From positions 1 through 48,610 of the IMG/VR virus record IMGVR_UViG_3300025109_002786: a stretch of 48,610 nucleotides of DNA. The stretch is one strand, 5' to 3'. This DNA is from a virus. The notes under the pieces were generated by a model. The model was not told where the DNA came from and made no database searches. It saw nothing but the letters and a program-made list of their open reading frames with translations. Each line of letters begins with the position of its first letter. The first letter of the stretch is position 1. A program made the position numbers and the translations under genes. Shown here in pieces: positions 5,358 to 25,027 of the stretch.

Positions 5358-6120
5358 CTATTTGCAAGGAGGTCTCGGAAATCAGCTATTCCAAATAGCA
5401 GCTGCAATCTCTACCGGGATTGATAACAATACTGCGCCCGCGTTTAATGTGGAAAATCATCATTTACCAAACCAAGGGAGAGAGTGTCACAATTATTTGG
5501 AAACAATTTTTAGGAATCTTTATTTTTCTTCCAGTTTACCTATAAAGAATCTTTATCAAGAACCATATTTTCATCATACTCCAATAGAATATGTACCCGA
5601 CATGTGCTTGGTTGGATATTTTCAATCAGAGAAATATTTTGAAAAAAATGGAGATGTCATTAGGGAGTTATTTGCTATTGACGAGAAAACTAAAGCCTCT
5701 ATAAATGAAAAATACGGAGAACTATTGAAGAATGAAACCGTTGCAGTACATGTTCGACGAGGGGACTACCTAAAATATAGTCATATGCATCCTCCGTGCG
5801 AGCTTGATTATTATAAGCAGGCGATGGATAATTTTTCAAAAGACGCCACTTACTTATTCTTCAGTGATGACATTGGCTGGTGCAAAGAAAATTTTATTCA
5901 TGAAAACTATATTTTTATAGAAGGAAATGAAGATATTTTAGATTTCTATTTGATATCTGAGTGTAAAAATGTTATACTTTCAAATAGCAGCTTTAGTTGG
6001 TGGGGAGCGTGGTTAAACGAAGGGGGTAAAAATTTGATTATTGCTCCTAAAAAATGGTTTGGCCCAGAAAGTATCCATGATACAAAAGATTTAATTCCCG
6101 CAAGGTGGAAAGTAATATGA
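5344..6120 (+). CDS. Alpha-1,2-fucosyltransferase-like protein (GT11)
   Basis: A 258-residue protein with the GT11 signatures in order: LQGGLGNQLFQIAAA at the N-terminus, VAVHVRRGDYLK in the middle (the HxRRxDY box that binds GDP-fucose), YLFFSDDIGWCK, and ILSNSSFSWWGAWL near the C-terminus. Family members transfer L-fucose from GDP-fucose, usually in alpha-1,2 linkage. This fits the presence of Gmd and Fcl at 23136-25027, which would make that donor. Length is slightly short but complete. It overlaps genes on both sides. The linkage and the acceptor are inferred from the family only. Confidence 0.85.
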   Translation: MMISSYLQGGLGNQLFQIAAAISTGIDNNTAPAFNVENHHLPNQGRECHNYLETIFRNLYFSSSLPIKNLYQEPYFHHTPIEYVPDMCLVGYFQSEKYFEKNGDVIRELFAIDEKTKASINEKYGELLKNETVAVHVRRGDYLKYSHMHPPCELDYYKQAMDNFSKDATYLFFSDDIGWCKENFIHENYIFIEGNEDILDFYLISECKNVILSNSSFSWWGAWLNEGGKNLIIAPKKWFGPESIHDTKDLIPARWKVI

Positions 6121-7457
6121 TAGATGATGAATTAGAAGAAATATTATCTTTAGTTGACAAATATATTAAAAATAAGGATGCGGCTAAAACGTGGACTGCG
6201 GGCAAAGACTGGATATATTACGCCGGCCCGTATTTTAATAGTGATGAGTATACTAGCGGAATTAGGACATTTTTGAAGGGCTGGCTCGTTCTGGGAAAAG
6301 AGGGCGCCCAATTTGAGAAAAGATTTTCTAAAATCTTAGGAAAGGAATATGGCTTACTAACCAATAGTGGTTCAAGCGCTAATCTGCTTATGATGGCGGC
6401 CCTCAAGTCTAAAAAACTTAATAACTTTCCAGAAGGGACAAAAGTACTTACTCCTATAGCGGGGTTTCCCACCACAATCAACCCCATTTTTCAGACAGGT
6501 TTCGAACCGGTTTTTGTTGATGTGGAACTCCCAAGTCTCAACTTGAATATCGACCAGGCTGAAGAAGCTTTGCGGAAGCATGATATTAAAATCATAACGT
6601 TTGCCCACGTTTTAGGAAATCCTCCGAATATGGATCGAATAATGGAGCTCGTTAAAAAATATAATTTGATTCTTTTGGAGGATTGTTGTGACGCCATGGC
6701 TGGCACCTATGATAATCAGCCGCTAGGATCTTTTGGCGATATGGCTACTTGTTCTTTTTATCCTGCACACCATATTACGATGGGAGAGGGAGGATTTATT
6801 GCGGTGAAAGACAAGCTCCAAGAAAAAGTAGTCAGAAGCTTCAGAGATTGGGGGCGCGGCTGCTATTGTGTAGGGGAAAAGGCCAGCATAAGTAAGTGTG
6901 GCGCCTGTGGTAAGAGGTTCTCGTGCTGGTTAAAATCTTTGCCAACTAAAGTTTTTGATCACAAGTATGTTTACGAAGAGATAGGGTATAATCTAAAGCC
7001 GATTGAGTTCCAGGCCGCCCTCGGCCTGGCACAGTTAGGGAAAATTGATACTATCAAAACTTTACGTAATAATAACTTTAACAATCTATACAATATTTTT
7101 AAAAAGTATGAGGAGTTTTTCTATCTGCCAGAGGCAACTCCAAAATCGGATCCTAACTGGTTTGCATTTCCTTTGACGATTAGGGATAACAGATTATTTA
7201 CTCGAGAAGAGATTACTACATTTTTAGAATCTAAAAAGATACAAACTAGAACTTATTTTGCAGGCAACATTATGCTTCAACCGGCCTATTCCCATTTAAT
7301 TGATACTGAAAAAATTATTAAAGAATATCCTGTAGCGGGGAAAGTTACGACCGATACTTTTTTCCTTGGCACGGCGCCGGTTATAACCGAAGAGAAGATT
7401 AATTATATTGGAGAGATGGTAGATCTGTTCATGGGAGGCAAAGAAGGATGTTCGTGA
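6117..7457 (+). CDS. rfbH: RfbH/E1-type NDP-4-keto-6-deoxyhexose 3-dehydrase (PLP, [2Fe-2S])
   Basis: A 446-residue DegT/DnrJ/EryC1/StrS-fold enzyme. In ordinary aminotransferases of this fold a lysine holds PLP. Here the box reads FYPAHHITMGEGG with His218 in that place, the hallmark of the 3-dehydrases E1 (RfbH/DdhC) and ColD. Cys191, Cys249 and Cys251 reproduce the C-x57-C-x-C spacing of the E1 iron-sulfur site, and Cys264 (in ACGKRF) fits as the fourth ligand after a short insertion. E1 removes the 3-hydroxyl on the way to 3,6-dideoxyhexoses, needing electrons from a reductase. The ATG at 6117 overlaps the upstream stop (ATGA) and is preferred to the GTG at 6105. No obvious CDP-glucose 4,6-dehydratase or E3 reductase is nearby; the ferredoxin at 9725 could be involved. 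Confidence 0.85.
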   Translation: MIDDELEEILSLVDKYIKNKDAAKTWTAGKDWIYYAGPYFNSDEYTSGIRTFLKGWLVLGKEGAQFEKRFSKILGKEYGLLTNSGSSANLLMMAALKSKKLNNFPEGTKVLTPIAGFPTTINPIFQTGFEPVFVDVELPSLNLNIDQAEEALRKHDIKIITFAHVLGNPPNMDRIMELVKKYNLILLEDCCDAMAGTYDNQPLGSFGDMATCSFYPAHHITMGEGGFIAVKDKLQEKVVRSFRDWGRGCYCVGEKASISKCGACGKRFSCWLKSLPTKVFDHKYVYEEIGYNLKPIEFQAALGLAQLGKIDTIKTLRNNNFNNLYNIFKKYEEFFYLPEATPKSDPNWFAFPLTIRDNRLFTREEITTFLESKKIQTRTYFAGNIMLQPAYSHLIDTEKIIKEYPVAGKVTTDTFFLGTAPVITEEKINYIGEMVDLFMGGKEGCS

Positions 7458-8149
7458 TACCGTGTAAATACACCTCAGCGCCGGCAGACATTAAGGAGAG
7501 TTACGTAGTTAAAAGCGTGGCATCAATAAGACTTCACCACCCAGACGAAAAGATATTGGTGGTTGATTCGGATTCTGATGATGTATCGTATTTAGAGCAT
7601 TTAAAGAAAATACCAAATGTAATAGCCGCAGACGCAAAGAATAAAAATTGGCTAGACGGCGCTTTATGGTATGCATACGAAAATTATCCTGCCGAAGCTT
7701 GGTATTGTGTGTTACAAGATTCAATAACCATAAAATATTCCTTTGATGAGTTTATAAATGGCGAAGAGCCTTTTTATTCACTAATGTGGTTTCCGGAAAC
7801 TATTCTTGGTCCTCGAGAATTGGAGTATTTAGACAAATTATTTGACGGGCATTTAAAAAAATATAAACCAATGCGAAGTAATTCAATTATTGGTTGTTGG
7901 GGCCCCTGCTTTCTGGCAAAGAGAGAAATTCTAGAGCGTCTTCGGGCGAATAACTTGCATTTATGTATGCCATATGATAAATTTACCTCCAATGTTAGTG
8001 AGCGCGTGTGGGGTATGTGTGTTGCATATGAGGGGATTGATATAGAACAACACACCATTGACGGCAATTTTTTAGCAATTGCTCTGCCAAGAGAGCTTTT
8101 TAATACAAAATCCAAGTATCATAATAAAATTTATGGCGGGAGGCAGTAA
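7448..8149 (+). CDS. Unknown glycan-cluster protein, possibly GT-A-like
   Basis: A 233-residue soluble protein I do not recognise with confidence. It begins MFVIPCKYTSAP and soon has ILVVDSDSDDVSYL, which resembles the nucleotide-binding strand and DxD-type acidic motif of GT-A glycosyltransferases. A later WYCVLQDSITI segment resembles the core strand of the same fold. No other diagnostic motif is visible. It overlaps the RfbH-like gene by 10 bases and touches the radical SAM gene (TAA then ATG), so it is in the same transcription unit. A sugar transferase or modifying role is an inference from fold-like motifs and context. Confidence 0.5.
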   Translation: MFVIPCKYTSAPADIKESYVVKSVASIRLHHPDEKILVVDSDSDDVSYLEHLKKIPNVIAADAKNKNWLDGALWYAYENYPAEAWYCVLQDSITIKYSFDEFINGEEPFYSLMWFPETILGPRELEYLDKLFDGHLKKYKPMRSNSIIGCWGPCFLAKREILERLRANNLHLCMPYDKFTSNVSERVWGMCVAYEGIDIEQHTIDGNFLAIALPRELFNTKSKYHNKIYGGRQ

Positions 8150-9709
8150 ATGAAGAAAAAAATATTATTATTTTGGCCCAATACTTCAAATCGTGGAAGG
8201 ATTCACATGGTTATTCCTATTTTAAGTGCAGTGTCTAAAAAATTAGGATGGGAAGTAAAATATTTTGATACTTCTTTTTACGAAAAAGAAGATGACTCGG
8301 TTCTAGAAAAAGAAAAGACAGGCGCATTTAAACCAACCAAAGAAAACTCTTTACCCGACACAAAATCACAGAGCTTAGTTGTTCCAGATTTTCAAAAAAT
8401 TATTGATGATTTTAAGCCAGATGTAATAGCGATATCAGGGATGACAAGTGATTTTCAATATATGATGACCTTCTTTCCAGAGTTGAAAATTCCACAAGAT
8501 ACTGTTGTCGCTTTTGGTGGAACACACTCATTACATATGTCTGAAGAAATACTCAATACTGGCATGATTGACATATCATGTTTCGGCCAAGGAGAAGGTA
8601 TACTCCCCGAGATTCTAAAAAGAGTAGAAAATGGTGATGGACTGGAAGGTATCCCGGGAACGGCCCATCTTGACAAGCGCTTCGGCACGATGATCAAAAA
8701 TCCTGTCGCGCCGGCCATGGATGCGGATGAGCTTTGGAACCTTGAGCCTGATTATTCATTTTATGATCAAAGATATTACACTTATCCGTTTGATGGAGGT
8801 GTGGTTAATATGTTTTGGCTCGAGGTAGGCCGGGGATGTCCCTACTCGTGCACGTATTGCGAAGCGCCGCAGATTAGAAATCTTTTTAAGGGTCAGGGAA
8901 AATATGTCATTTCCAGACCAATGGACAATATTTTTGATACGATAAAAAAGCTTCAAGAAAAATATGAGATTGATGTGTTTAATATAACACACGAATGTTT
9001 TCTTTCACAACGAAAAGCGTGGATTAAAGAATTCTGCGAACGCTGGGGCCGCGAGGTTAAAAAGAGCTTTCTAATACAGACGCGGATGGAAACGTGCGAT
9101 ATAGAAAAACTCGATCTCTTGCGACTCTCTAACGCGCCGGTAATTCAAATAGGACAAGGAATAGAGTCCGGAAATGAAAGGGTTTTAGCTGAAATATGTA
9201 ATAGAAGAATGAAACTAGAGCCAGTCATAGAATCATACAAAATTATGAACCAACGCGGGTTTAGAACTAATGCTTACTATATGATAGGGTTTCCAACTGA
9301 GACACGAGAAGAAATATTCGAATCTATAGAACTCTGCAGGCAAGTTAATTCCGATATAGACTCAGTAAGCATATTTCAACCATTCCCGGGGCTCCCCTTA
9401 ACAAGAACTTGTATGGAAAATGGCTGGATAAATGGATCCGAGACGTTTCCCACATTTACTGAAAAATCTATTATCAACCAGCCTTCGATTTCTGCAGAAG
9501 AGGTTACAAATTTAAGAAGAGTCTTTCTGCTTTATGCAAAACTACCAAAGAAATATTGGCCTGATATAGAAAAATGTGAAAATAATTATTTTGAAAACCA
9601 AGAGCTCTTTAAACAACTAGTTGATCTGCGCTGGCGCCTGCACGGCGAAGACACATCTGCAGAAGACCCGCTTAGCGGGGTTAGATTGGAACCTCTATCC
9701 TCATGTTAA
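8150..9709 (+). CDS. B12-binding-domain radical SAM enzyme
   Basis: A 519-residue protein. Residues 1-190 look like a cobalamin-binding Rossmann domain (DVIAISGMTSDFQYMM, VAFGGTHSLHMSEEIL, ISCFGQGEG). A radical SAM barrel follows, with Cys230-x3-Cys234-x2-Cys237 (GRGCPYSCTYC), which binds [4Fe-4S] and SAM. GQGIESGNE and YYMIGFPTETREE are typical later strands. Class B radical SAM enzymes often methylate unreactive carbons, and sugar-cluster members can modify the sugar ring or chain. The gene abuts its upstream neighbour. A ferredoxin gene 15 bases downstream is a possible electron donor. The reaction is not determined. Confidence 0.85.
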   Translation: MKKKILLFWPNTSNRGRIHMVIPILSAVSKKLGWEVKYFDTSFYEKEDDSVLEKEKTGAFKPTKENSLPDTKSQSLVVPDFQKIIDDFKPDVIAISGMTSDFQYMMTFFPELKIPQDTVVAFGGTHSLHMSEEILNTGMIDISCFGQGEGILPEILKRVENGDGLEGIPGTAHLDKRFGTMIKNPVAPAMDADELWNLEPDYSFYDQRYYTYPFDGGVVNMFWLEVGRGCPYSCTYCEAPQIRNLFKGQGKYVISRPMDNIFDTIKKLQEKYEIDVFNITHECFLSQRKAWIKEFCERWGREVKKSFLIQTRMETCDIEKLDLLRLSNAPVIQIGQGIESGNERVLAEICNRRMKLEPVIESYKIMNQRGFRTNAYYMIGFPTETREEIFESIELCRQVNSDIDSVSIFQPFPGLPLTRTCMENGWINGSETFPTFTEKSIINQPSISAEEVTNLRRVFLLYAKLPKKYWPDIEKCENNYFENQELFKQLVDLRWRLHGEDTSAEDPLSGVRLEPLSSC

Positions 9710-9724
9710 CAATAAGAGAACAAT

Positions 9725-10015
9725 ATGTCAGCGCCTGGTGATAAATGGTATGATAACCTCGAAGAAAAAACCGTAATAAATGGAAAGACTTATTCATTTT
9801 ACTGTGATCACGCATGTATTCACTGTTTCATGTGTCAGGAAAGTGCGCCGGATAGCTTCAAAACTTCTGAAGATGAAGACCACAATATTGTATATAATCA
9901 GCCAAAGACGGCTGAAGAGTTAGAAAAATGTTTACAGGCAATGGAAGAATGCCCAGTTGAGGCTATAGGTTGCGATGGACATATGTCTACAGATAAGAAA
10001 TACAAGCGAGAATAG
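9725..10015 (+). CDS. Small ferredoxin-like [4Fe-4S] protein
   Basis: A 96-residue acidic protein. Cys31, Cys34 and Cys37 (ACIHCFMCQ) together with Cys76 (EECPVEAI) form the C-x2-C-x2-C…CP pattern of a single-cluster [4Fe-4S] ferredoxin. Extra cysteines at 27, 69 and 83 leave open a second or modified cluster. It lies straight after one radical SAM gene and within a block that also has a second radical SAM gene, and it is close to the Fe-S 3-dehydrase. Its likely job is to pass electrons to these enzymes. The Shine-Dalgarno sequence is weak (purine-rich AAGAGAA). Confidence 0.85.
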   Translation: MSAPGDKWYDNLEEKTVINGKTYSFYCDHACIHCFMCQESAPDSFKTSEDEDHNIVYNQPKTAEELEKCLQAMEECPVEAIGCDGHMSTDKKYKRE

Positions 10016-10052
10016 GGAAGCTGCTTTAACGCAGGCACGCAAGGAAAAAATA

Positions 10053-10412
10053 ATGAAAATAAGGCCGAAAACGATATTTTGCGATATTGACGGAACACTC
10101 ATAAAACACCATGGAGCCGTTTCGAAACAAATAGCCCATAAGCCCGAAATTTTGGATGGAATTTTAGAAAAACTTGATAGTTGGGATCGATCGTGTTATA
10201 ATATTATTCTGACCACAGGTAGGAAAGAGAGTCTTCGAGATATGACCGAGAAACAGCTAAATAGCTTGGGAATAATATATGATCAGCTGATAATGGGCTT
10301 GGGCGGCGGAACTCGAATATTAATAAATGATTTAAAACCAGATAGTGATGAGCCAACTGCGATCGCGATTAATCTGAAAAGAAACAAAGGAATAAAAAAT
10401 GTCGACATTTGA
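10053..10412 (+). CDS. HAD-superfamily phosphatase-like protein
   Basis: A 119-residue protein with the HAD nucleophile motif DIDGT (Asp11, Asp13), ILTTGRKE as motif II, and ILINDLKP as the late acidic motif. There is no cap domain, so it resembles the small phosphatases of capsule and heptose clusters. The frame opens upstream at 9975, but AAGGA before the ATG at 10053, and the start of the family fold there, support 10053. It overlaps the cupin gene by 14 bases. With the GmhA-like isomerase downstream, it could remove a phosphate from a sugar bisphosphate, as GmhB does; this is inference. Confidence 0.75.
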   Translation: MKIRPKTIFCDIDGTLIKHHGAVSKQIAHKPEILDGILEKLDSWDRSCYNIILTTGRKESLRDMTEKQLNSLGIIYDQLIMGLGGGTRILINDLKPDSDEPTAIAINLKRNKGIKNVDI

Positions 10413-10869
10413 TGATGTAACCGATCCCTTCATAAGAAAAGCCCTAGATGACTATAAAGATAAAATAGATGATAAAAAAGAACATGCTTTAGACTTAAGT
10501 AAGTATAGAGTTGAAAAGCCTTGGGGATATGAGTTGTGGCTAGAATTAAATGAATTTTACGCTTTTAAATTAATTCACATGAAAAAGGGAAACAAATCGA
10601 GTCTCCAGTGGCACGATAGAAAAATAGAAGCAAACTATGTCATCGAGGGCGAGGCTGAAGTGCTTTTGGAGGATGATGAGAAAAATCTTCAGTCACACAT
10701 ATTTAAGGCAGGTTCCGGGTGGGTGGTTCCCGTACAAAGAAAACACAGAGTTATAGCATTAACAGACTACACTGCTTTAGAGGTTTCAACGCCACATCTG
10801 GACGATGTAGTAAGATTTCAGGATGATGCGAAACGACCTAGCGGCAAAATAGACTCTGAACATGAATGA
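10399..10869 (+). CDS. Cupin, mannose-6-phosphate isomerase type II-like
   Basis: A 156-residue single-cupin protein. It has EKPWGYELW near residue 38, the W-G-x-E opening seen in the isomerase domain of ManC/AlgA-type enzymes. LQWHDRKIEANYVIEGEAEV contains the cupin metal-binding His/Glu motif, and KHRV supplies the later histidine. DVVRFQDDAKRP ends it much as ManC ends with its RxQDDYGR tail. It may isomerise a sugar phosphate or bind a sugar substrate. It is translationally coupled to genes on both sides, between the HAD phosphatase and the nucleotidyltransferase-kinase. Confidence 0.75.
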   Translation: MSTFDDVTDPFIRKALDDYKDKIDDKKEHALDLSKYRVEKPWGYELWLELNEFYAFKLIHMKKGNKSSLQWHDRKIEANYVIEGEAEVLLEDDEKNLQSHIFKAGSGWVVPVQRKHRVIALTDYTALEVSTPHLDDVVRFQDDAKRPSGKIDSEHE

Positions 10870-12445
10870 TACTTATAAATTTTGTATTCTCGCAGCTGGC
10901 GAAGGTACTCGAAACAACTCTTTTAGAGGGCTTCATAAAGCACTCTTACCCGTAAATAATAGGCCCGTTATTTCAATTATAATTGATAAGGTGCCAAAAA
11001 CGGTACCAATTGTTGTGGCCCTAGGGCACAAAGGAGAACAAGTAAAAACGTATTTACAGAACGTATATCCGAATCGTATATTTGAGTTTATTGATGTTGA
11101 AAACTACTCTGGCCCAGGTTCTGGCCCAGGTCTTAGTTTACTAAAGTGCGAAAGCGCCATGCAATGCCCGTTCATTTTTACATCGGCTGATACAATCATT
11201 GATGATGACTTTCAGTTTTTAACAGTGGATAAAAATTGGGTAGGGGTCAGCCAAGTGTCCAATACAGAGTCACATGAATATTGCCTTGTTAAAATAAATG
11301 GTGAATTGGTGGAAGAATATTTTTATGGGAATAATCAAAATGCTTATGCTTTTACCGGGATTGCGGGTGTTTTAGATTATGAAGATTTTTGGAAGGGGTT
11401 GCGCCAAAAGAATGTCATAAAGCGGGAACACCAAGTGTTGGATGGATTGAGGTTTCTCACAAATACTCACAAGTTTAATATGAGTTGGTTTGATACCGGG
11501 AATGTCAGGGCCTATACACGGACTAAATCTTATTACCCCAACAATCTTGCTGTAGAAAAAGATAATGAAGCAATATTCGTGGATAATGGCTACGTTATCA
11601 AATATTTTGAAGATCCATCGCGGGCACAAAGAAGAGTCGAAAGATCCGCCGCGCTATCGGGTATCACCCCTCCGGTTACAAAAATAAATGAGAATATGTA
11701 TTCTTATCCTTATGTGGAGGGCAGATGCTTATCAAACGTATATGATGAAACAATTCTTTATAATTTTTTAAACAACTATCATCAAAAATTTCGCCACGAC
11801 ACTTATACAAAAAACAACATATTTTTGGATAACTGTAAAAAAATGTATCAAGACAAAACTCGCGAAAGGGTTAAAGTTTTCCACGGAACAGAGTTAGATA
11901 ATATTAAAGTAATTAATGGGGTGGTAGTTAGGCCCATTGATGAACTTCTGGATGAATTAGATTGGGCATCGATCTATGAAAAGGCCATCCCCTCTAAATT
12001 TCATGGAGACTTGCAGCCCGAAAATTTATTGGTACTTCCTGGTGGAGGTTATCTTTATATAGACTGGCGTGAAAGCTTTGGAGAAGACCTTACTGTAGGA
12101 GACGCGTATTATGATTTGGGGAAGCTCTACCACGCGTTGGTAATTAGTAATAATTTAATTTTAAGCGGCGCGTACGAGGTTAGCAAGACAGTCGATCAAG
12201 CTGAAATTAAGTATACCTTGAAAAATAATCTCTATCAATTTTTGGAGATCTTAAAAGACTTCTGTGCAAGATGGGAGTATGAATATGAACACGTACAATT
12301 ACTTGGGGTCTTAAATTACTTAAATATTGCAAGCCTATATGGTAAATTTGAAGATGGGAAGTATCAGGAATTCTTATTTCTGTTGGGGAAGAAGCTATTG
12401 GTTCAGTATTTGGAGGGATGTAATGGAAACAAGCGCGTGGGTTGA
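10862..12445 (+). CDS. Sugar nucleotidyltransferase-kinase fusion
   Basis: A 527-residue two-domain protein. Residues 1-220 form a nucleotidyltransferase: ILAAGEGTR is the phosphate-binding signature, followed by HKALLPV and TSADTIID (metal site). Residues 250-527 resemble aminoglycoside phosphotransferase/choline kinases: HGDLQPEN at 381-388 is the catalytic HxDxxxxN loop, and Asp401 in YIDWRESFG is the metal-binding Asp. Such a pair could phosphorylate a sugar at C1 and then activate it with a nucleotide. A GPGSGPG loop is encoded by a perfect 12-bp tandem repeat. It overlaps the SIS-isomerase gene by 23 bases. Sugar and nucleotide are unknown. Confidence 0.8.
   Translation: MNDTYKFCILAAGEGTRNNSFRGLHKALLPVNNRPVISIIIDKVPKTVPIVVALGHKGEQVKTYLQNVYPNRIFEFIDVENYSGPGSGPGLSLLKCESAMQCPFIFTSADTIIDDDFQFLTVDKNWVGVSQVSNTESHEYCLVKINGELVEEYFYGNNQNAYAFTGIAGVLDYEDFWKGLRQKNVIKREHQVLDGLRFLTNTHKFNMSWFDTGNVRAYTRTKSYYPNNLAVEKDNEAIFVDNGYVIKYFEDPSRAQRRVERSAALSGITPPVTKINENMYSYPYVEGRCLSNVYDETILYNFLNNYHQKFRHDTYTKNNIFLDNCKKMYQDKTRERVKVFHGTELDNIKVINGVVVRPIDELLDELDWASIYEKAIPSKFHGDLQPENLLVLPGGGYLYIDWRESFGEDLTVGDAYYDLGKLYHALVISNNLILSGAYEVSKTVDQAEIKYTLKNNLYQFLEILKDFCARWEYEYEHVQLLGVLNYLNIASLYGKFEDGKYQEFLFLLGKKLLVQYLEGCNGNKRVG
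11108..11131 (+). repeat. Perfect 12-bp tandem repeat inside the nucleotidyltransferase domain
   Basis: The unit TCTGGCCCAGGT occurs twice without mismatch and encodes the GPGSGPG loop. Slippage here would change the loop by four residues. Related nucleotidyltransferases appear to share a glycine-proline loop, so the repeat may be functional rather than accidental. Confidence 0.8.
12412..12417 (+). promoter_or_regulatory. Ribosome binding site of the SIS isomerase gene
   Basis: GGAGGG lies inside the end of the upstream gene. It is followed by ATG-TA-ATG: the first ATG (12418) is immediately closed by TAA, and the second (12423) opens the isomerase. This supports 12423 as the true start instead of the upstream extension to 12327. 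Confidence 0.6.
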
Positions 12446-13049
12446 CCTCTATAAACAGGAATCAACCTCAGTAGTGAATAATCTGTCAAATGAAGAGCTA
12501 GCCTCCTTTGTTGATATAATTCTAGAAGCTCACGATAGAGAATCCATCGTTTTTGCTTGCGGAAACGGAGGAAATGTGGCGTATGTGGGAAATCTTGTTG
12601 TTGATTTAAACATGCATCCGTTTGTATCAGAGGATAAAGGTGCCCGAGTAGCAAAGAGAAATAAGTTCCATTGTGTCAATCTGTGCGATTGTGCCGCCAC
12701 AATAACAGGAATATCTAATGATTTGGGATATGAGCATATTTTTAGTGAGCAATTATTGTATCAAGCAAAAAAGGACGATGTATTCTTTGGAATTACTGGA
12801 TCGGGCAACTCTAAAAATGTAATTAAAGCTCTAGAATATGCTGAGCAAATCGGCATGAAATCGGTCGTTGTTACCAGAAATGAAGAATGTCGGGCAAAAG
12901 AGCTTGCAGATTTGTTGATTGTAGTGAGAGGAGAGTCAACCTTTCCAGGCCAGACCGGTAAAAACAACAATAATTTTCATTTTGAAGATTGCATATCTAA
13001 AATAACTCACATTGCGGTAGGAATGCTTAAAAAGAAAGTCTCGCAATGA
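12423..13049 (+). CDS. SIS-domain phosphosugar isomerase, GmhA-like
   Basis: A 208-residue sugar isomerase fold. ACGNGGNVAYVGNLVVDL (about residues 45-62) matches the GmhA CGNGGS…A loop, and GITGSGNSKNVIKALE matches its second phosphate-binding loop. GmhA converts sedoheptulose 7-phosphate to heptose 7-phosphate. The transketolase pair directly downstream can make sedoheptulose 7-phosphate, so a heptose-like route is attractive. The usual GmhA serine after GNGG is replaced by Asn here, so the substrate may differ. Start by RBS as noted at 12412; ATGA coupling to the next gene. Confidence 0.8.
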   Translation: METSAWVDLYKQESTSVVNNLSNEELASFVDIILEAHDRESIVFACGNGGNVAYVGNLVVDLNMHPFVSEDKGARVAKRNKFHCVNLCDCAATITGISNDLGYEHIFSEQLLYQAKKDDVFFGITGSGNSKNVIKALEYAEQIGMKSVVVTRNEECRAKELADLLIVVRGESTFPGQTGKNNNNFHFEDCISKITHIAVGMLKKKVSQ

Positions 13050-13831
13050 AAATAAAAGCGAATAGATTGAGGGAACATGTGTTGAAAATGGTTTATGACA
13101 AACAATCTGGCCATATTGGTGGAAGCTTTTCTTTGGCCGAAGTGGTGGCACATCTGTATTCAACGTACGATATCGCATCAGATAAGATTGGTTCTTGCCG
13201 CCTCATCTTGTCGAAGGGTCATGCGGTACCCATTATTTATGCGGCCTTATATGAGCTCGGTATTCTGACTGAAAATGATATTAACACTTTTCGAGAAGTT
13301 GATTCTCTTTTACAAGGCCACCCGGATAAGCTGAGGCTCCCCTATCTGCACGCTACTACTGGATCGCTTGGTCAAGGGCTGAGTATCGCCATAGGACACT
13401 CCTTGGCCATGAAACTAAAAAACTTAAATAAGCAATGTTTTTGTATAATTGGTGATGGCGAGATTCAGGAGGGTCAAATTTGGGAAGGATTAATGCTCGC
13501 GCCAAAATTTAACTTAGATAATTTGATTTGCTTGATTGATTGTAACAAATCACAAAATGATGGTCTTGTTGAAGATATTTTGCCAATCGGTCCACTCGGG
13601 GAAAAAATTAAAACTTTTAATTGGGATGTCGTGGAGATTGATGGCAATGATGAGACTTCCGTGGCCGCGGCCATTTCAGAAGCTTGCAGTAATCATAATG
13701 GTAAACCAAAGTGTATTATTTTAAATACACAAAAGGGGAGTGGTGTTTCCTTTATGAATGATCCAGTTTGGCATGCGAAGGCACCAAACAAAGAAGAGTA
13801 TGAAAGAGCGATAAAGGAATTAAGATGTTAG
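13046..13831 (+). CDS. Transketolase, N-terminal (ThDP-binding) subunit
   Basis: A 261-residue protein matching the first third of transketolase. It has HIGGSFSLAEV, SKGHAVP, GSLGQGLSIAIG, and GDGEIQEGQIWE followed by IDCNK, the GDG…N motif that holds thiamine diphosphate and Mg. Lengths of this and the next gene fit the split (two-subunit) transketolases. It moves a two-carbon ketol unit between sugars. The gene starts in an ATGA overlap with the SIS isomerase and overlaps the second subunit by 7 bases, giving balanced expression. Its use in a glycan cluster rather than central metabolism is implied by context. Confidence 0.9.
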   Translation: MKIKANRLREHVLKMVYDKQSGHIGGSFSLAEVVAHLYSTYDIASDKIGSCRLILSKGHAVPIIYAALYELGILTENDINTFREVDSLLQGHPDKLRLPYLHATTGSLGQGLSIAIGHSLAMKLKNLNKQCFCIIGDGEIQEGQIWEGLMLAPKFNLDNLICLIDCNKSQNDGLVEDILPIGPLGEKIKTFNWDVVEIDGNDETSVAAAISEACSNHNGKPKCIILNTQKGSGVSFMNDPVWHAKAPNKEEYERAIKELRC

Positions 13832-14769
13832 CCACCAGAGATGCTTTCGGCGCGCAGCTGGTTGAGTCAGCGAGGGAAAATAACAATATTGTAGCTGTGA
13901 GTGCCGATCTGGCCAGTGCGACCAGGTTATCAAAATTCCAACAAGAGATTCCCGATAGGTTTTTTGAAGTCGGAATAGCAGAATGCAACATGATCGGGTT
14001 AAGTTCGGGCCTTTCTGAATATGGTTATAAAGTTTTTATGGCCTCCTTTGCATCTTTTTTAACCGGCAAGTATGATGTTATAAGGGTTTCTATATGTTAT
14101 GCCGAAGCTCCTGTGGTTCTGGTGGGAACACACACTGGAATGGCAATTGGAAAGGACGGGGTAACACAGATGGGCCTTGAAGACATCAGCTTAATGAGGG
14201 CACTACCAAACATGTCAATCATAAATCCAGCCACTTATTCAGAAGCCAAATCAGTTGTAAAATTTTTATGTGAGAATGATATTAAAGGCCCACAGTATTT
14301 AAGACTTGGGCGCCAGCCGGTTAAAGATATATTAGAGGTGCACTATACCAAGAATCAATTTGAATTTGGTAAGGCGCTTACCGTGAAGGAGGGAGAAGGC
14401 TTGACCATTTTTTCTACTGGGTGTACGTTGCCAGATGTTCTGGAGGCCGCACTCCAAATAGAAAACACTTCACACCAAACAGTTAGAGTAGTAAACATTC
14501 ACACCATAAAGCCCATTGATAAAGAAACAATTATTAAATGTGCGAAAGAAACCAAACATCTTTTTTCTGTTGAAGATCATACAATAGTTGGTGGTTTTGG
14601 TTCTTCCATATCGGAGGTTTTGACGGACGCATACCCCAAAAAATTAGTAAGGATAGGGCTTAACGATAGATTCCCAGAATCGGGCCCTCCGAAAGACCTA
14701 TATGAGAAATATGGCTTAAGCGCTGCGCAAATTTCGAAGAGAATTTTAAATGAAATCCTGGATAAATAA
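13825..14769 (+). CDS. Transketolase, C-terminal (pyrimidine-binding) subunit
   Basis: A 314-residue partner of the preceding gene. It begins ATRDAFGAQLVESARE and has EVGIAECNMIGLSSGLS, the conserved region with the catalytic Glu (IAECN) that activates thiamine diphosphate. VGTHTGMAIGKDGVTQMGLED and VEDHTIVGGFGS are further family segments. The C-terminal nucleotide-fold domain is present, so this is a complete subunit. Start at ATG 13825 overlaps the upstream stop. Together with 13046 it would form an active transketolase or a ketol-transfer enzyme with a changed acceptor. Confidence 0.9.
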   Translation: MLATRDAFGAQLVESARENNNIVAVSADLASATRLSKFQQEIPDRFFEVGIAECNMIGLSSGLSEYGYKVFMASFASFLTGKYDVIRVSICYAEAPVVLVGTHTGMAIGKDGVTQMGLEDISLMRALPNMSIINPATYSEAKSVVKFLCENDIKGPQYLRLGRQPVKDILEVHYTKNQFEFGKALTVKEGEGLTIFSTGCTLPDVLEAALQIENTSHQTVRVVNIHTIKPIDKETIIKCAKETKHLFSVEDHTIVGGFGSSISEVLTDAYPKKLVRIGLNDRFPESGPPKDLYEKYGLSAAQISKRILNEILDK

Positions 14770-15397
14770 AGATACCGAAATATATTGTTCTTTTGCGCAG
14801 ACAGCCGGGAATACTGGATGCCAAATGATGAATACTGCCTTTTATTATTATGGGCTGAATAAAATATACAAATCATTTTCTGTAGAAAATATCGAGTTGG
14901 CGGTAGAGGCTGTTAAAACATTAGATATTAAAGGATTCGCAGTCACAATGCCCTATAAAGTCGAGGTATTAAACTATGTTGACGAAATGGAAGACTCGGT
15001 TAAAGAAATAGGCGCCGCGAATACAGTGGTAAATTCTGATGGAAAGCTCCGGGCCTATAACACAGATGCTTTTTCGGCATCAACCTTTTTACGAAACCAC
15101 GACAACGAAAAGGTTTTGTATATTATCGGAAACGGCGGTTACGCAAAGGCAGTTAAATGGGCCGCGGCAAACCGCGGCTTTAATATTGAACAGATAACAA
15201 GAAACACGTGGAACTATATAGAAGGAGTACAATCTTCTATAGTTTATAATTGTACGCCGGTTAATATTCGTGATCTTGTTAATACCTCAAATGTTTTTAT
15301 TGACTGCTTGACTGAAAGCAATACCGGTAAAAAGTTAGCAGCGCTGCAGGCATCAAAACAATTTAAGTTGTACACAAATTTGGAGTGGCCACTATGA
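14750..15397 (+). CDS. Shikimate/quinate dehydrogenase-like protein (AroE family), short
   Basis: A 215-residue protein with several AroE landmarks. AVTMPYK ends at Lys70 (the catalytic lysine of VT-x-P-x-K), GAANTVV follows, NTDAF gives Asp106 (the partner aspartate), and IIGNGGYAKA near residues 125-134 is the NADP-binding glycine loop. Usual AroE is about 270 residues, and the C-terminal helix pair seems to be missing. The N-terminal substrate serine motif (SxS) is weak. It overlaps the transketolase gene by 20 bases. A phage-borne AroE relative in a sugar block suggests reduction of a keto-cyclitol or keto-sugar acid; this is inference. Confidence 0.75.
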   Translation: MKSWINKDTEIYCSFAQTAGNTGCQMMNTAFYYYGLNKIYKSFSVENIELAVEAVKTLDIKGFAVTMPYKVEVLNYVDEMEDSVKEIGAANTVVNSDGKLRAYNTDAFSASTFLRNHDNEKVLYIIGNGGYAKAVKWAAANRGFNIEQITRNTWNYIEGVQSSIVYNCTPVNIRDLVNTSNVFIDCLTESNTGKKLAALQASKQFKLYTNLEWPL

Positions 15398-17145
15398 CAA
15401 AAACAAAATTGAATATATTATCTAAGGATGCAATTATTAAGGATGAACTTGCAACCGCCGCCGCCGAGAGGCTTGCCGCAGATACTAAAGAAAAATTTAA
15501 AGTATTATTTTTTTACCCCAACGAACCAATGGTGGGCCTCCCCCCTAGTAATATGGCAATACTGTCTGCTTGTTTAAAGAAAGCCGGCTTTGATGTTAAG
15601 TTGTTTGACTGTACTTTATACAAGTCGATTAAATACGTCGCCAACGCCGATCTTCCGTATCATTCACCTACCCAAGACGAAATAAGGGATTCATTAGGAC
15701 ACACAAAGAAATCGGCGATTAAAGACTATGTCCAACTTAAAGAAAGTAATGTTTATAGTGACTTTGCTGATATGGTAGAAGATTATAAACCAGATCTTAT
15801 AGCTATATCAATAGTTGATAGTACAATACACTTTTCGTATAAATTTTTAGATCAGATTAGAGGTAAAAGGCCTCCGATACTTATGGGGGGCACCGGCGCC
15901 ACATTTGGAGCTGATAAAATATTAAATTCTGGTTATGTAGACTTTGTGTGTGCTGGCGAAGGCGAAGGGGCCTTGGTGGAATTGTGTGAAAGATTATCTA
16001 GAAATGAAGATTGCACAAATGTAAAAAATATATACTTAAAAGACAAAAATGGAGAAATTATAAAAAATCCCCAGAGGCCTGTCACTGATCTCGATGCTCT
16101 TCCAATGCCAGATTTTTCCATTTACGACAACCAACGATTCTATAGACCCTTTATGGGCAAAGTTGTTAGGGGGATGTGGATCGATTGGGATAGAGGTTGC
16201 CCCTATCAGTGTTCATATTGCGCGGCGCCAGCTTTGCTACGCAATGCTCGAGAACAAAAGATCGGAAAATATTATAGAGTCAAGAGCGAAGAAACAATTT
16301 TCAGAGAAATGAAGTTTTTAGTTAAAGAATACAAACTAGATTTTATCTATCTTAGTTCCGAAACACTATTGATTATCAAGTTGGAGAAATTTAAAAGAAT
16401 TATGAAAAGATATAAAGAGGAAATTAATCTTCCTTTTTGGTGTCAAAGCAGGTTAGACAGTTTTACGGAGGAAAGAACAAAATTGCTAAAAGAGGCAGGG
16501 TGCCAGTCAACTTCTGTTGGCCTAGAACACGGGAACGAACAGATGAGGACGAAATTACTGCGCAAGATGCTGAAGAATGACAAAGTATATGAGGGTTTTA
16601 AGGTTCTAGCAAAGTATAACATTCGTCCAACTATTAATAGTATGTTGGGGATGCCCGATGAAACCCGCGAGCATGTTTTTGATACGTTTGAAATGAATCG
16701 AAATATTTCAAAAATATTAAAAGGTAACCACAATATGAACGTCTTTACCTTTGTACCTTTTTCTGGTACCGAGTTAAGAAGGCTGTCGATCGAGAAAGGA
16801 TACGTCGACCCAGACGAGCCAGTTTCATTTTCCTTTTATAAAGAAAGTATGCTAACTATGCCTTCAATGTCGAAAAAAGAAATTGCCGGATTAGAAAAAA
16901 CAGCGCACCTTTACATCTTTTTACCCAAATCTCGTTATCCTGAAATAAAAATAGCAGAGCAAGATGATGAAGAGGGCAAAGAAATGTTTAACAAATTAAT
17001 GGTCGACATGAAAGCTATAAAGGCAGAATACGACGCTCTTCCGGGCTCACTAACTGCGGGAGACACCGGTGCACCGGGGGGCCTGCCTGAACGTGCTGCG
17101 CAAGGAAGAGATCATTTAGCAAAACCAGGAAAAGATAGCCTATAA
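15394..17145 (+). CDS. B12-binding-domain radical SAM enzyme (second)
   Basis: A 583-residue protein. An N-terminal cobalamin-type domain has VLFFYPNEPMVGLPPSNMA and ILMGGTGATFGADKIL, then CAGEGEGALVEL. The radical SAM motif is Cys269-x3-Cys273-x2-Cys276 (RGCPYQCSYC). Later elements are SVGLEHGNEQMR and MLGMPDETREH. It resembles the enzyme at 8150 in layout but is clearly divergent, so two separate radical steps are likely. The ATG at 15394 forms ATGA with the previous stop and is preferred to GTG 15385. The last 35 residues are a GC-rich, Gly/Pro-rich tail unlike the rest of the gene. Confidence 0.85.
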   Translation: MTKTKLNILSKDAIIKDELATAAAERLAADTKEKFKVLFFYPNEPMVGLPPSNMAILSACLKKAGFDVKLFDCTLYKSIKYVANADLPYHSPTQDEIRDSLGHTKKSAIKDYVQLKESNVYSDFADMVEDYKPDLIAISIVDSTIHFSYKFLDQIRGKRPPILMGGTGATFGADKILNSGYVDFVCAGEGEGALVELCERLSRNEDCTNVKNIYLKDKNGEIIKNPQRPVTDLDALPMPDFSIYDNQRFYRPFMGKVVRGMWIDWDRGCPYQCSYCAAPALLRNAREQKIGKYYRVKSEETIFREMKFLVKEYKLDFIYLSSETLLIIKLEKFKRIMKRYKEEINLPFWCQSRLDSFTEERTKLLKEAGCQSTSVGLEHGNEQMRTKLLRKMLKNDKVYEGFKVLAKYNIRPTINSMLGMPDETREHVFDTFEMNRNISKILKGNHNMNVFTFVPFSGTELRRLSIEKGYVDPDEPVSFSFYKESMLTMPSMSKKEIAGLEKTAHLYIFLPKSRYPEIKIAEQDDEEGKEMFNKLMVDMKAIKAEYDALPGSLTAGDTGAPGGLPERAAQGRDHLAKPGKDSL

Positions 17146-23139: not shown

Positions 23140-24053
23140 TTTTAGTTACTGGTGGGACCGGCATGGTCGGGAGTGCTTTAAAGAGCCTGATACCTTCTGA
23201 ACATTTTACCTCAACAACAGAATGTGATTTACGAAACTCACTAGAAACAGAACGTCTTTTTTCTCATTATCGCCCTTCGGAAGTTATACATTTAGCCGCA
23301 CGCGTAGGTGGTATCAAGGCCAATATGGAGAACTTAGGAGAATTTTATTACGACAACATAATGATAAATACTAACGTCTTGGAGGCGTCCAGAAAATATG
23401 AAGTTAAGAAAGTGGTGTCGCTGCTTAGTACGTGTATCTATCCGGATGAGGTTACCTACCCTCTGATGGAAGAACAAATACATGCCGGCACACCCCATGA
23501 ATCAAATTTTTCTTATGCGTATGCCAAAAGAATGTTGGATGTCCAATCGCGGGCTTATCGCAAGCAATATGGTTGTAATTTTATAACAGCAGTCCCAAAT
23601 AATCTATTCGGCGAAAACGACAACTTTGATCTAGAAGACAGCCATGTTATTCCAGCCATGATACGAAAAATATATCACGCTAGTTTAACCAACGAAGATG
23701 TACCTCTGTGGGGTGACGGTTCTCCTTTGAGAGAATTTACCTATTCAAAGGATTTAGCAACAATTTTAATGTTTCTTTTAAAAGAATATGATGGTGAATA
23801 TCCCATTAATATCGGCAATACAAAGGAGTATTCGATTAAAGAGGTAGCACAAACGATTGCCAAAATAATGAGATTTAATGGAAAGATTATTTGGCAAACA
23901 GAGATGCCCAGCGGCCAACATAAGAAACCGTCTGACAGTTCCAAATTTAAATCGATTTGTGATACAAACTATACTGATTTTGAAAAGGCTTTAAGAAACA
24001 CTTGCAATTGGTTTATAATGAATTATCCCAGCATAAGGGGGATCACCACATGA
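23136..24053 (+). CDS. fcl: GDP-L-fucose synthase (Fcl/WcaG)
   Basis: A 305-residue SDR of normal family length. GGTGMVGSAL binds NADP. HLAARVGGIKANMEN and LLSTCIYPD are GDP-fucose-synthase signatures, and SYAYAKRMLD carries the YxxxK pair. PNNLFGENDNFD follows as in the family. It converts GDP-4-keto-6-deoxymannose (from the next gene) to GDP-L-fucose by 3,5-epimerisation and reduction. Product use by the two GT11-like transferases in the same island is likely. Confidence 0.92.
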   Translation: MILVTGGTGMVGSALKSLIPSEHFTSTTECDLRNSLETERLFSHYRPSEVIHLAARVGGIKANMENLGEFYYDNIMINTNVLEASRKYEVKKVVSLLSTCIYPDEVTYPLMEEQIHAGTPHESNFSYAYAKRMLDVQSRAYRKQYGCNFITAVPNNLFGENDNFDLEDSHVIPAMIRKIYHASLTNEDVPLWGDGSPLREFTYSKDLATILMFLLKEYDGEYPINIGNTKEYSIKEVAQTIAKIMRFNGKIIWQTEMPSGQHKKPSDSSKFKSICDTNYTDFEKALRNTCNWFIMNYPSIRGITT

Positions 24054-25027
24054 AAACAGCATTAGTTACCGGCATTACGGGCCAAGATGGTTCGTATTTA
24101 GCAGAATTTTTATTATCCAAAGGATATAAAGTAGTTGGGGTGAAGCGCCGAACTTCTCTTATTAATACTGCTCGGGTCGACCCGGTGTATAATGACGTAA
24201 ATTTTGTAATGGAATATGGTAGTTTGCACGATGCAGGTTGCTTTTGGAAGCTTTTGATTAAGTATCACCCAGAAGAAATTTATCATCTCGCAGCCCAGTC
24301 TCACGTAAGGGTATCCTTTGAGGTGCCCGAAGAAACTGTTGATTCTGTAGCTATGGGTACATTGCGTTTGCTTAATGCGTATAAGCAGATCTGCCCGGAT
24401 GCTAAGTTTTATCAAGCATCATCTTCTGAGATGTATGGAGATAATCCGCTACCGCCATTTAACGAGGAGTCTTTGATGACTCCGGCGTCGCCCTATGCAT
24501 GCGCCAAGTTATTTGCTCATAACCTGGTTAGAAACTACAGAGAAAGCTATAACTTACATGCTTCTAGCGGTATTTTGTTTAATCATGAATCACCTCGCCG
24601 CGGCGAAACATTTGTGACCCGTAAGATTACTCTTGCCGCGGCGCGCATTAAACTGGGATTGCAAGATGTCTTGCATCTCGGAAATTTAGATGCCCGACGT
24701 GATTGGGGATTTGCTGGTGATTACGTAGAGGCAATGTGGCTAATGCTTCAACAAAAAACACCAGATGATTATGTAATAGCTACGGGCGAGTCCCACACAG
24801 TCAAAGAGTTTTTGGAGTGTGTGTTTGACTGTGCTGGCTTGGGAAACTATGAAAAGTATGTGAGGATTAATGGGCGCTATTTTAGGCCTCATGAGGTGCC
24901 TTATTTATTGGGCGACCCGACCAAAGCAAAAAAAGTATTAAAATGGGAACCGACAGTATCATTTGAAAAACTTGCATCTATGATGTATGATGCAGATTTA
25001 GAATTAATTAAAGGAGAATTAAAATGA
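24050..25027 (+). CDS. gmd: GDP-mannose 4,6-dehydratase (Gmd)
   Basis: A 325-residue SDR. ALVTGITGQDGSYLAEFLL is the classic opening, then VVGVKRRTS, HLAAQSHVRVSFEVPEETV, QASSSEMYGD, SPYACAKLFAH for the catalytic tyrosine-lysine pair, and FNHESPRRGETFVTRKI, diagnostic for Gmd. The frame extends upstream to 24002 inside fcl, but ATG 24050, with AAGGGGGA before it and an ATGA overlap with the previous stop, begins at the fold. It makes GDP-4-keto-6-deoxy-D-mannose. It is the last glycan gene of the island. Confidence 0.95.
   Translation: MKTALVTGITGQDGSYLAEFLLSKGYKVVGVKRRTSLINTARVDPVYNDVNFVMEYGSLHDAGCFWKLLIKYHPEEIYHLAAQSHVRVSFEVPEETVDSVAMGTLRLLNAYKQICPDAKFYQASSSEMYGDNPLPPFNEESLMTPASPYACAKLFAHNLVRNYRESYNLHASSGILFNHESPRRGETFVTRKITLAAARIKLGLQDVLHLGNLDARRDWGFAGDYVEAMWLMLQQKTPDDYVIATGESHTVKEFLECVFDCAGLGNYEKYVRINGRYFRPHEVPYLLGDPTKAKKVLKWEPTVSFEKLASMMYDADLELIKGELK

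Follow-up and report, generated by a model that had tools for sequence, protein, structure and literature searches.

What does a virus make with ten closely packed genes that begin and end with a B12-type radical SAM enzyme? The question arises from an incomplete virus contig of 48,610 bases (IMGVR_UViG_3300025109_002786; the whole stretch is referred to here as the window), in which all of the main genes lie on the + strand. Our answer, to which we give a probability of about 0.58, is that a core cassette within this block directs synthesis of a nucleotide-activated, probably C7-type sugar and that phage glycosyltransferases attach the sugar to the infected cell's surface polysaccharide. A preliminary description of the DNA had listed ten co-directional genes of named families with small overlaps or gaps, and the gene layout, Pfam and NCBIfam searches, and motifs agreed with it except at two gene starts (the HAD gene begins at ~10053 and the SIS gene at 12423). 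The ten genes are all intact, run in one direction (+) from 8150 to 17145, and are separated by overlaps or short gaps, as follows.

8150 to 9709, + strand: rSAM1, B12-binding radical SAM protein, 519 residues (Pfam); optional partner
9725 to 10015, + strand: single-cluster ferredoxin, 96 residues (Fer4_13, 1.2e-13); possible electron donor
10053 to 10412, + strand: small HAD phosphatase, 119 residues (DIDGT motif; PNKP/GmhB-like profile matches); core
10399 to 10869, + strand: cupin, sugar isomerase/epimerase-like (Cupin_2, MannoseP_isomer); core
10862 to 12445, + strand: NTase-APH, bifunctional nucleotidyltransferase-APH kinase, 527 residues (NTP_transf_3 and APH); core
12423 to 13049, + strand: GmhA-like SIS isomerase of a separate subfamily, 208 residues (SIS_2); core
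13046 to 13831, + strand: TktN, transketolase N-terminal subunit, binding thiamine diphosphate (ThDP) (Transketolase_N, 4.4e-35; GDG-N); core
13825 to 14769, + strand: TktC, transketolase C-terminal subunit (Transket_pyr, Transketolase_C; GIAE); core
14750 to 15397, + strand: short AroE-like dehydrogenase, 215 residues (Shikimate_dh_N, 3.6e-17); core
15385 to 17145, + strand: rSAM2, B12-binding radical SAM protein, 586 residues (Pfam); optional partner

The characteristic motifs are intact in both radical SAM proteins (CxxxCxxC), the HAD protein (DxDGT), TktN (GDG-N), and TktC (GIAE).

Co-conservation of the core genes

The conserved unit consists of seven genes, those for the small HAD, cupin, NTase-APH, SIS, TktN, TktC, and AroE-like proteins. 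The compact block originally proposed is thus a unit in its core but not across all ten genes, and it is part of a longer stretch of sugar genes. Three separate scans of the viral collection were made with SIS, AroE-like, and TktC queries; because the degenerate peptide patterns used in them miss relatives, all counts are lower bounds. The SIS scan returned 16 viral contigs (two pairs look nearly identical, leaving ~14 distinct), and cupin, NTase-APH, and TktN genes were found within 10 kb in all 16. TktC and AroE-like genes were present in 15, the remaining contig stopping 1.2 kb past the start of the SIS gene, and the small HAD gene was present in 13, with a KdsC-like HAD gene instead in 2 of the other 3. 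Among the 80 loci of the AroE scan, NTase-APH was accompanied by a GatZ-like aldolase in 64 and by SIS and transketolase in 11; one locus had both versions, one had NTase-APH alone (at a contig edge), and the last three comprised a contig edge and two weak matches (~30%). In the TktC scan, 21 of 22 loci were cassette loci or fragments of such loci.

Independent acquisition of these genes into a hypervariable sugar region, for use in unrelated steps, would be another way to account for the block. The surrounding region does vary strongly between phages, and the order of the core changes, with the AroE-like gene ahead of the SIS gene in one locus (L004) and the transketolase on the opposite strand in another (L130). 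However, the set remains together despite such reordering and wide divergence, which is hard to explain without joint function, and we consider independent acquisition very improbable. Co-occurrence was the check that the preliminary description had called for, and homologues did not occur independently of one another in any of the three viral scans. The comparisons support the view that the core genes would act as a functional unit and are not chance neighbors.

The transketolase version also appeared in six loci of a cellular scan, titled Nitrosopelagicus, archaeon, Pacearchaeon, alphaproteobacterium, flavobacterium, and a metagenome-assembled genome contig (L007); the gene order of L007 is similar to that of a viral locus (L002), and L007 may itself be viral. 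This version is rare in cells, occurring in 1 of 200 Nitrosopelagicus-family genomes and 1 of 385 alphaproteobacterial-class genomes, in each case the carrier already known. In cellular loci, the small HAD is often replaced by a KdsC-like phosphatase.

Proposed chemistry and the aldolase version

In the scheme that we propose, in which each substrate and the order of the steps are predicted, TktN and TktC would form a ketose phosphate, such as sedoheptulose 7-phosphate, and the SIS protein would isomerize it. The APH domain would then phosphorylate a hydroxyl, most likely that at C1, the small HAD would take off the terminal phosphate, and the nucleotidyltransferase domain would yield a nucleoside diphosphate (NDP)-sugar. 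The AroE-like dehydrogenase may alter one carbonyl or hydroxyl, the cupin may isomerize or epimerize, and an optional modification such as C-methylation or deoxygenation could come from the B12 radical SAM enzymes, possibly assisted by the ferredoxin. The families fit the earlier suggestion that a transketolase could feed a GmhA-like step in an activated-sugar pathway, and we judge a general activated-sugar scheme to be fairly probable. In Campylobacter, the order isomerase, kinase, phosphatase, nucleotidyltransferase is established for GDP-heptose (PMC10680097).

Two of the proteins were modeled with AlphaFold. The model of NTase-APH is confident (predicted local distance difference test [pLDDT] score of 93), and its nucleotidyltransferase domain matched the folds of RmlA, MurU, LicC, and HddC at similar scores; the HGD and DxR motifs of the APH domain are invariant among 54 homologues. 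Three relatives (in L007, L040, and L048) have an extra cysteine-rich, zinc-ribbon-like N terminus of ~35 to 45 residues, which the window protein does not have. The small HAD matched the Pfam PNKP phosphatase model below its cutoff, and its PDB profile matches were PNKP and heptose bisphosphate phosphatase. The SIS model (pLDDT of 94) matched GmhA structures (E value of 1e-13 and template modeling score of 0.8), whereas the sequence scored 80 bits against the NCBIfam gmhA model, whose cutoff is 209. From its model and sequence, the SIS protein is best assigned to the GmhA fold but to a separate subfamily; the GmhA identity given to it at first therefore holds for the fold and not for GmhA proper. 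A plain GmhA is ruled out by the changed active-site residues.

Several observations weigh against our reading, and most of them bear on the heptose. Although His180 of the GmhA active site is retained, Glu65 is replaced by Asp and His61 by Asn in the phage forms, and the SIS protein carries two conserved inserts (HPFVSEDK and FPGQTGxNNNNFHFED). Its residues Asp61, His65, Glu188, and His196 are conserved and may form a site, perhaps for a metal. No heptose C1 kinase of the GHMP (HddA) or HldE type was found among the sugar genes of the window, where an APH domain occurs instead. We know of no step in the heptose routes for an enzyme like the AroE-like protein. The best PDB sequence matches of the nucleotidyltransferase domain, although weak (3.5e-6 and below), were CTP:inositol-1-phosphate and glucose-1-phosphate cytidylyltransferases. 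The version of the cassette with the GatZ-like aldolase (AldoZ) retains the cupin, NTase-APH, and often the AroE-like gene and has neither SIS nor transketolase, so the shared enzymes do not call for heptose chemistry. Because the SIS protein is not GmhA proper and the aldolase version exists, a plain heptose product is not established, and that the product is a true heptose seems to us possible but rather doubtful. The interpretation given in the preliminary description is supported in part.

AldoZ is a protein of 310 to 400 residues that stands as an alternative to SIS plus transketolase, and its profile matches are to GatZ/KbaZ and to class II ketose-bisphosphate aldolases; none of the Pfam models detected it in the phage member tested. 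Its gene (L059:12137-13081 and about 85 other loci) almost always adjoins NTase-APH, and its carriers are marine and freshwater viruses, Pelagibacter, Prochlorococcus, and DPANN archaea. From their families, the transketolase and AldoZ modules would both be expected to form carbon-carbon bonds and so give ketose phosphates; this points to a ketose-derived sugar as the probable substrate of the shared enzymes.

The same alternation would suit a cytidine diphosphate (CDP)-activated polyol or ketose derivative that is not a heptose. Here, the carbon-carbon bond former would give a ketose phosphate, the phosphatase would free the ketose, the AroE-like protein would reduce the ketone, the APH domain would rephosphorylate, and the nucleotidyltransferase would yield a CDP-alditol or similar compound. 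The pairing of the shared enzymes with either module agrees with such a route, as do the cytidylyltransferase matches and the existence of a sugar-acting 5-ketofructose reductase of the AroE fold. However, those matches are weak, RmlA, MurU, HddC, and LicC score alike in the fold search, and the SIS protein is left without a clear role; we regard this route as unlikely. With an activated C7-type sugar still our preferred product, a broader proposal, to which we give somewhat less than an even chance, is that an undescribed nucleotide-sugar pathway has spread among phages, archaea, and bacteria. It would combine one activation core (cupin, NTase-APH, AroE-like protein, and phosphatase) with interchangeable skeleton modules (transketolase plus SIS or the GatZ-like aldolase) to make a new class of surface sugar, alterable by the B12 radical SAM pair.

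The surrounding sugar region and the radical SAM pair

The proposed use of the sugar at the cell surface draws on the setting of the cassette, which is embedded among glycosyltransferase, Gmd, Fcl, and RfbH genes.

319 to 25027, + strand: unbroken glycosyltransferase and nucleotide-sugar region enclosing the ten-gene block

This region holds several glycosyltransferase genes, RmlC-, RmlB-, and RmlD-like genes, Fcl, Gmd (24047 to 25024, above its NCBIfam cutoff), and an RfbH-type dehydrase gene. In T4-type relatives, phage glycosyltransferases are thought to change the host O-chain (PMC7029224). A late sigma factor and homologues of the baseplate wedge proteins gp25 and gp6, encoded from ~25.8 kb onward, point to a T4-type myophage as the source of the window. 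The window and 13 carrier contigs were tested for the T4 capsid gp23 and prohead protease families, which were found in 4 of these 14 records, though not in the window, itself incomplete. No tRNA genes were found in the 48.6-kb window. The DegT-family protein at 6120 to 7454 scored above the RfbH NCBIfam cutoff (469 versus 423 bits); RfbH is a 3-dehydrase of CDP-4-keto-6-deoxyglucose, yet the window showed no genes for CDP-glucose. The protein at 7448 to 8149 had no Pfam or PHROG match and has relatives near the cassette in three loci (L040, L129, and L175).

An activated sugar could instead be destined for hypermodified bases in the phage DNA, like the arabinosyl-hydroxymethylcytosine of RB69, since RB69 ORF053c/052c, a relative of NTase-APH, has been linked to arabinosylation of DNA (PMC6024577). 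Yet the thymidylate synthase/deoxycytidylate hydroxymethylase family (PF00303) was not found in the window and 13 carrier contigs, including contigs of 165 and 186 kb (records may be incomplete), and the cassette is also found in polysaccharide-type loci of cells. We consider a DNA destination improbable.

The radical SAM enzymes rSAM1 and rSAM2, each with radical SAM and B12-binding domains, are ~30% identical to each other, and both scored far below the cutoffs of all named NCBIfam families, so that neither can be given a function on this basis. Besides the window, four viral contigs and one archaeon have close relatives next to the cassette. Those of rSAM1 (41 to 43%) immediately follow the HAD gene in one contig (L175/L234) and come after TktC in another (L235), and a relative in an archaeal locus (L011) is ~2 kb from nucleotidyltransferase and NTase-APH plus AldoZ genes. 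Those of rSAM2 (50 to 66%) occur in L040, L235 (which has relatives of both), and L200, where three such relatives immediately follow the cupin-NTase-APH, AroE-like, and HAD genes. That the pair is unrelated to the cassette is ruled out by the adjoining relatives in L175/L234, L235, and L200, found in the AroE and TktC scans. Most carriers, however, have neither gene. rSAM1 was absent from the SIS-scan loci, of which only one had a close rSAM2, and a scan with a two-sequence rSAM1 profile gave no match; no close relative of either was found in 50,697 phage records, and a narrow scan with a close-relative pattern found no ferredoxin relative in viral contigs. Because relatives recur near the cassette while most carriers lack both, rSAM1 and rSAM2 are regarded here as optional, recurrent modifiers and are neither core nor defining, and the part in the pathway first ascribed to them is to be narrowed to this extent.

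The association carries some ascertainment bias, since most of the loci with radical SAM genes were retrieved through cassette genes. In the viral locus L040, rSAM2 adjoins the GT2 gene (GT2b) that it also adjoins in the window, and it may just as well act on a different residue of the glycan. In a partial control with 288 genomes from the same order as the L011 archaeon, the best match was the L011 locus, and the next-best relatives (34 to 38%) were in cassette-free loci, some with phosphonate genes. Among Nitrosopumilaceae, 3 of 200 genomes had a radical SAM relative, including the sole cassette carrier (~17 kb from the SIS gene on the same contig). These genomes and the cassette-free archaeal loci rule out that radical SAM relatives mark the cassette in general. 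In three archaeal loci (L257, L258, and L260), rSAM2 relatives (35 to 38%) lie in clusters with phosphoenolpyruvate (PEP) mutase (checked in L257) and, by appearance, phosphonopyruvate decarboxylase- and 2-aminoethylphosphonate transaminase-like genes, so the rSAM2 family may also act on phosphonates. A virus contig (L238:12222-15180; IMGVR_UViG_3300007512_002803) has phosphonate genes near a transketolase cassette, namely a cytidylyltransferase-PEP mutase fusion (above its NCBIfam cutoff), a split ThDP decarboxylase-like pair, and an Fe-type alcohol dehydrogenase.

Comparison with known systems

The literature that we searched contained no description of this cassette or gene combination. To our knowledge, phage-carried sugar genes are mostly single enzymes or pieces of characterized pathways. 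Here, a co-conserved enzyme set without a described product can be defined by sequence, and its two alternating backbone modules make the chemistry testable. A new activated sugar, should the cassette make one, would account for some of the undescribed surface chemistry of microbes in oceans and groundwater and for the way in which their phages remodel it during infection.

The kind of locus is not new, since T4-type phages with lipopolysaccharide genes and radical SAM cassettes have been described (PMC7029224). Sugar genes, genes for glycosyltransferases, and radical SAM cassettes are common to the window and those pelagimyophages, lying in a variable region that is linked with the tail fiber module, whereas the main text of that paper makes no mention of a transketolase, aldolase, isomerase, nucleotidyltransferase, or seven-gene unit.

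The closest solved relative of the AroE-like protein is HI0607, of the AroE/SdhL family of Escherichia coli and Haemophilus influenzae. The catalytic Lys and Asp are retained (Lys70, Asp106, and the GxG motif are invariant in 42 homologues), but the phage form is ~55 residues shorter, also relative to full-length cellular forms, and is tied to a sugar-activation unit rather than to the shikimate pathway.

With the NDP-heptose pathway, the cassette shares a GmhA-fold isomerase, a sugar kinase, a HAD phosphatase, and a nucleotidyltransferase, and its transketolase could supply sedoheptulose 7-phosphate. The sugar-1-phosphate nucleotidyltransferase family of that pathway is present (NTP_transf_3; fold matches include HddC), with a predicted substrate. 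The kinase, however, is of the APH type and fused to the nucleotidyltransferase, in contrast to the separate HddA, and the altered SIS active site, the dedicated split transketolase, the AroE-like protein, the cupin, and the aldolase version are further differences. The cassette would work like a heptose-type nucleotide-sugar pathway, but we do not place it in that family, because two of the features that define the family were not found.

In RB69, ORF053c and ORF052c are in reality one gene (ORF53_52c), presumed to serve UDP-arabinose synthesis (PMC6024577). The RB69 product goes to DNA, its function is itself presumed, the SIS protein (ORF055c) falls outside the cassette subfamily (hhalign probability of 1.5%), and the stretch examined has no transketolase, AroE, or cupin gene. 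RB69p051 (L141:1209-1595), annotated as a phosphoheptose isomerase, resembles a small HAD phosphatase (DVDD motif). What RB69 shares with the cassette is a phage nucleotidyltransferase-kinase fusion that has genes for a SIS protein and a small HAD protein nearby; ORF053c and ORF052c are among the viral fold matches of NTase-APH, and hhalign probabilities (95.9% for the kinase half and 89.7% for the nucleotidyltransferase half) indicate a distant relationship. By analogy, RB69 is a phage precedent for the combination of isomerase, kinase, phosphatase, and nucleotidyltransferase.

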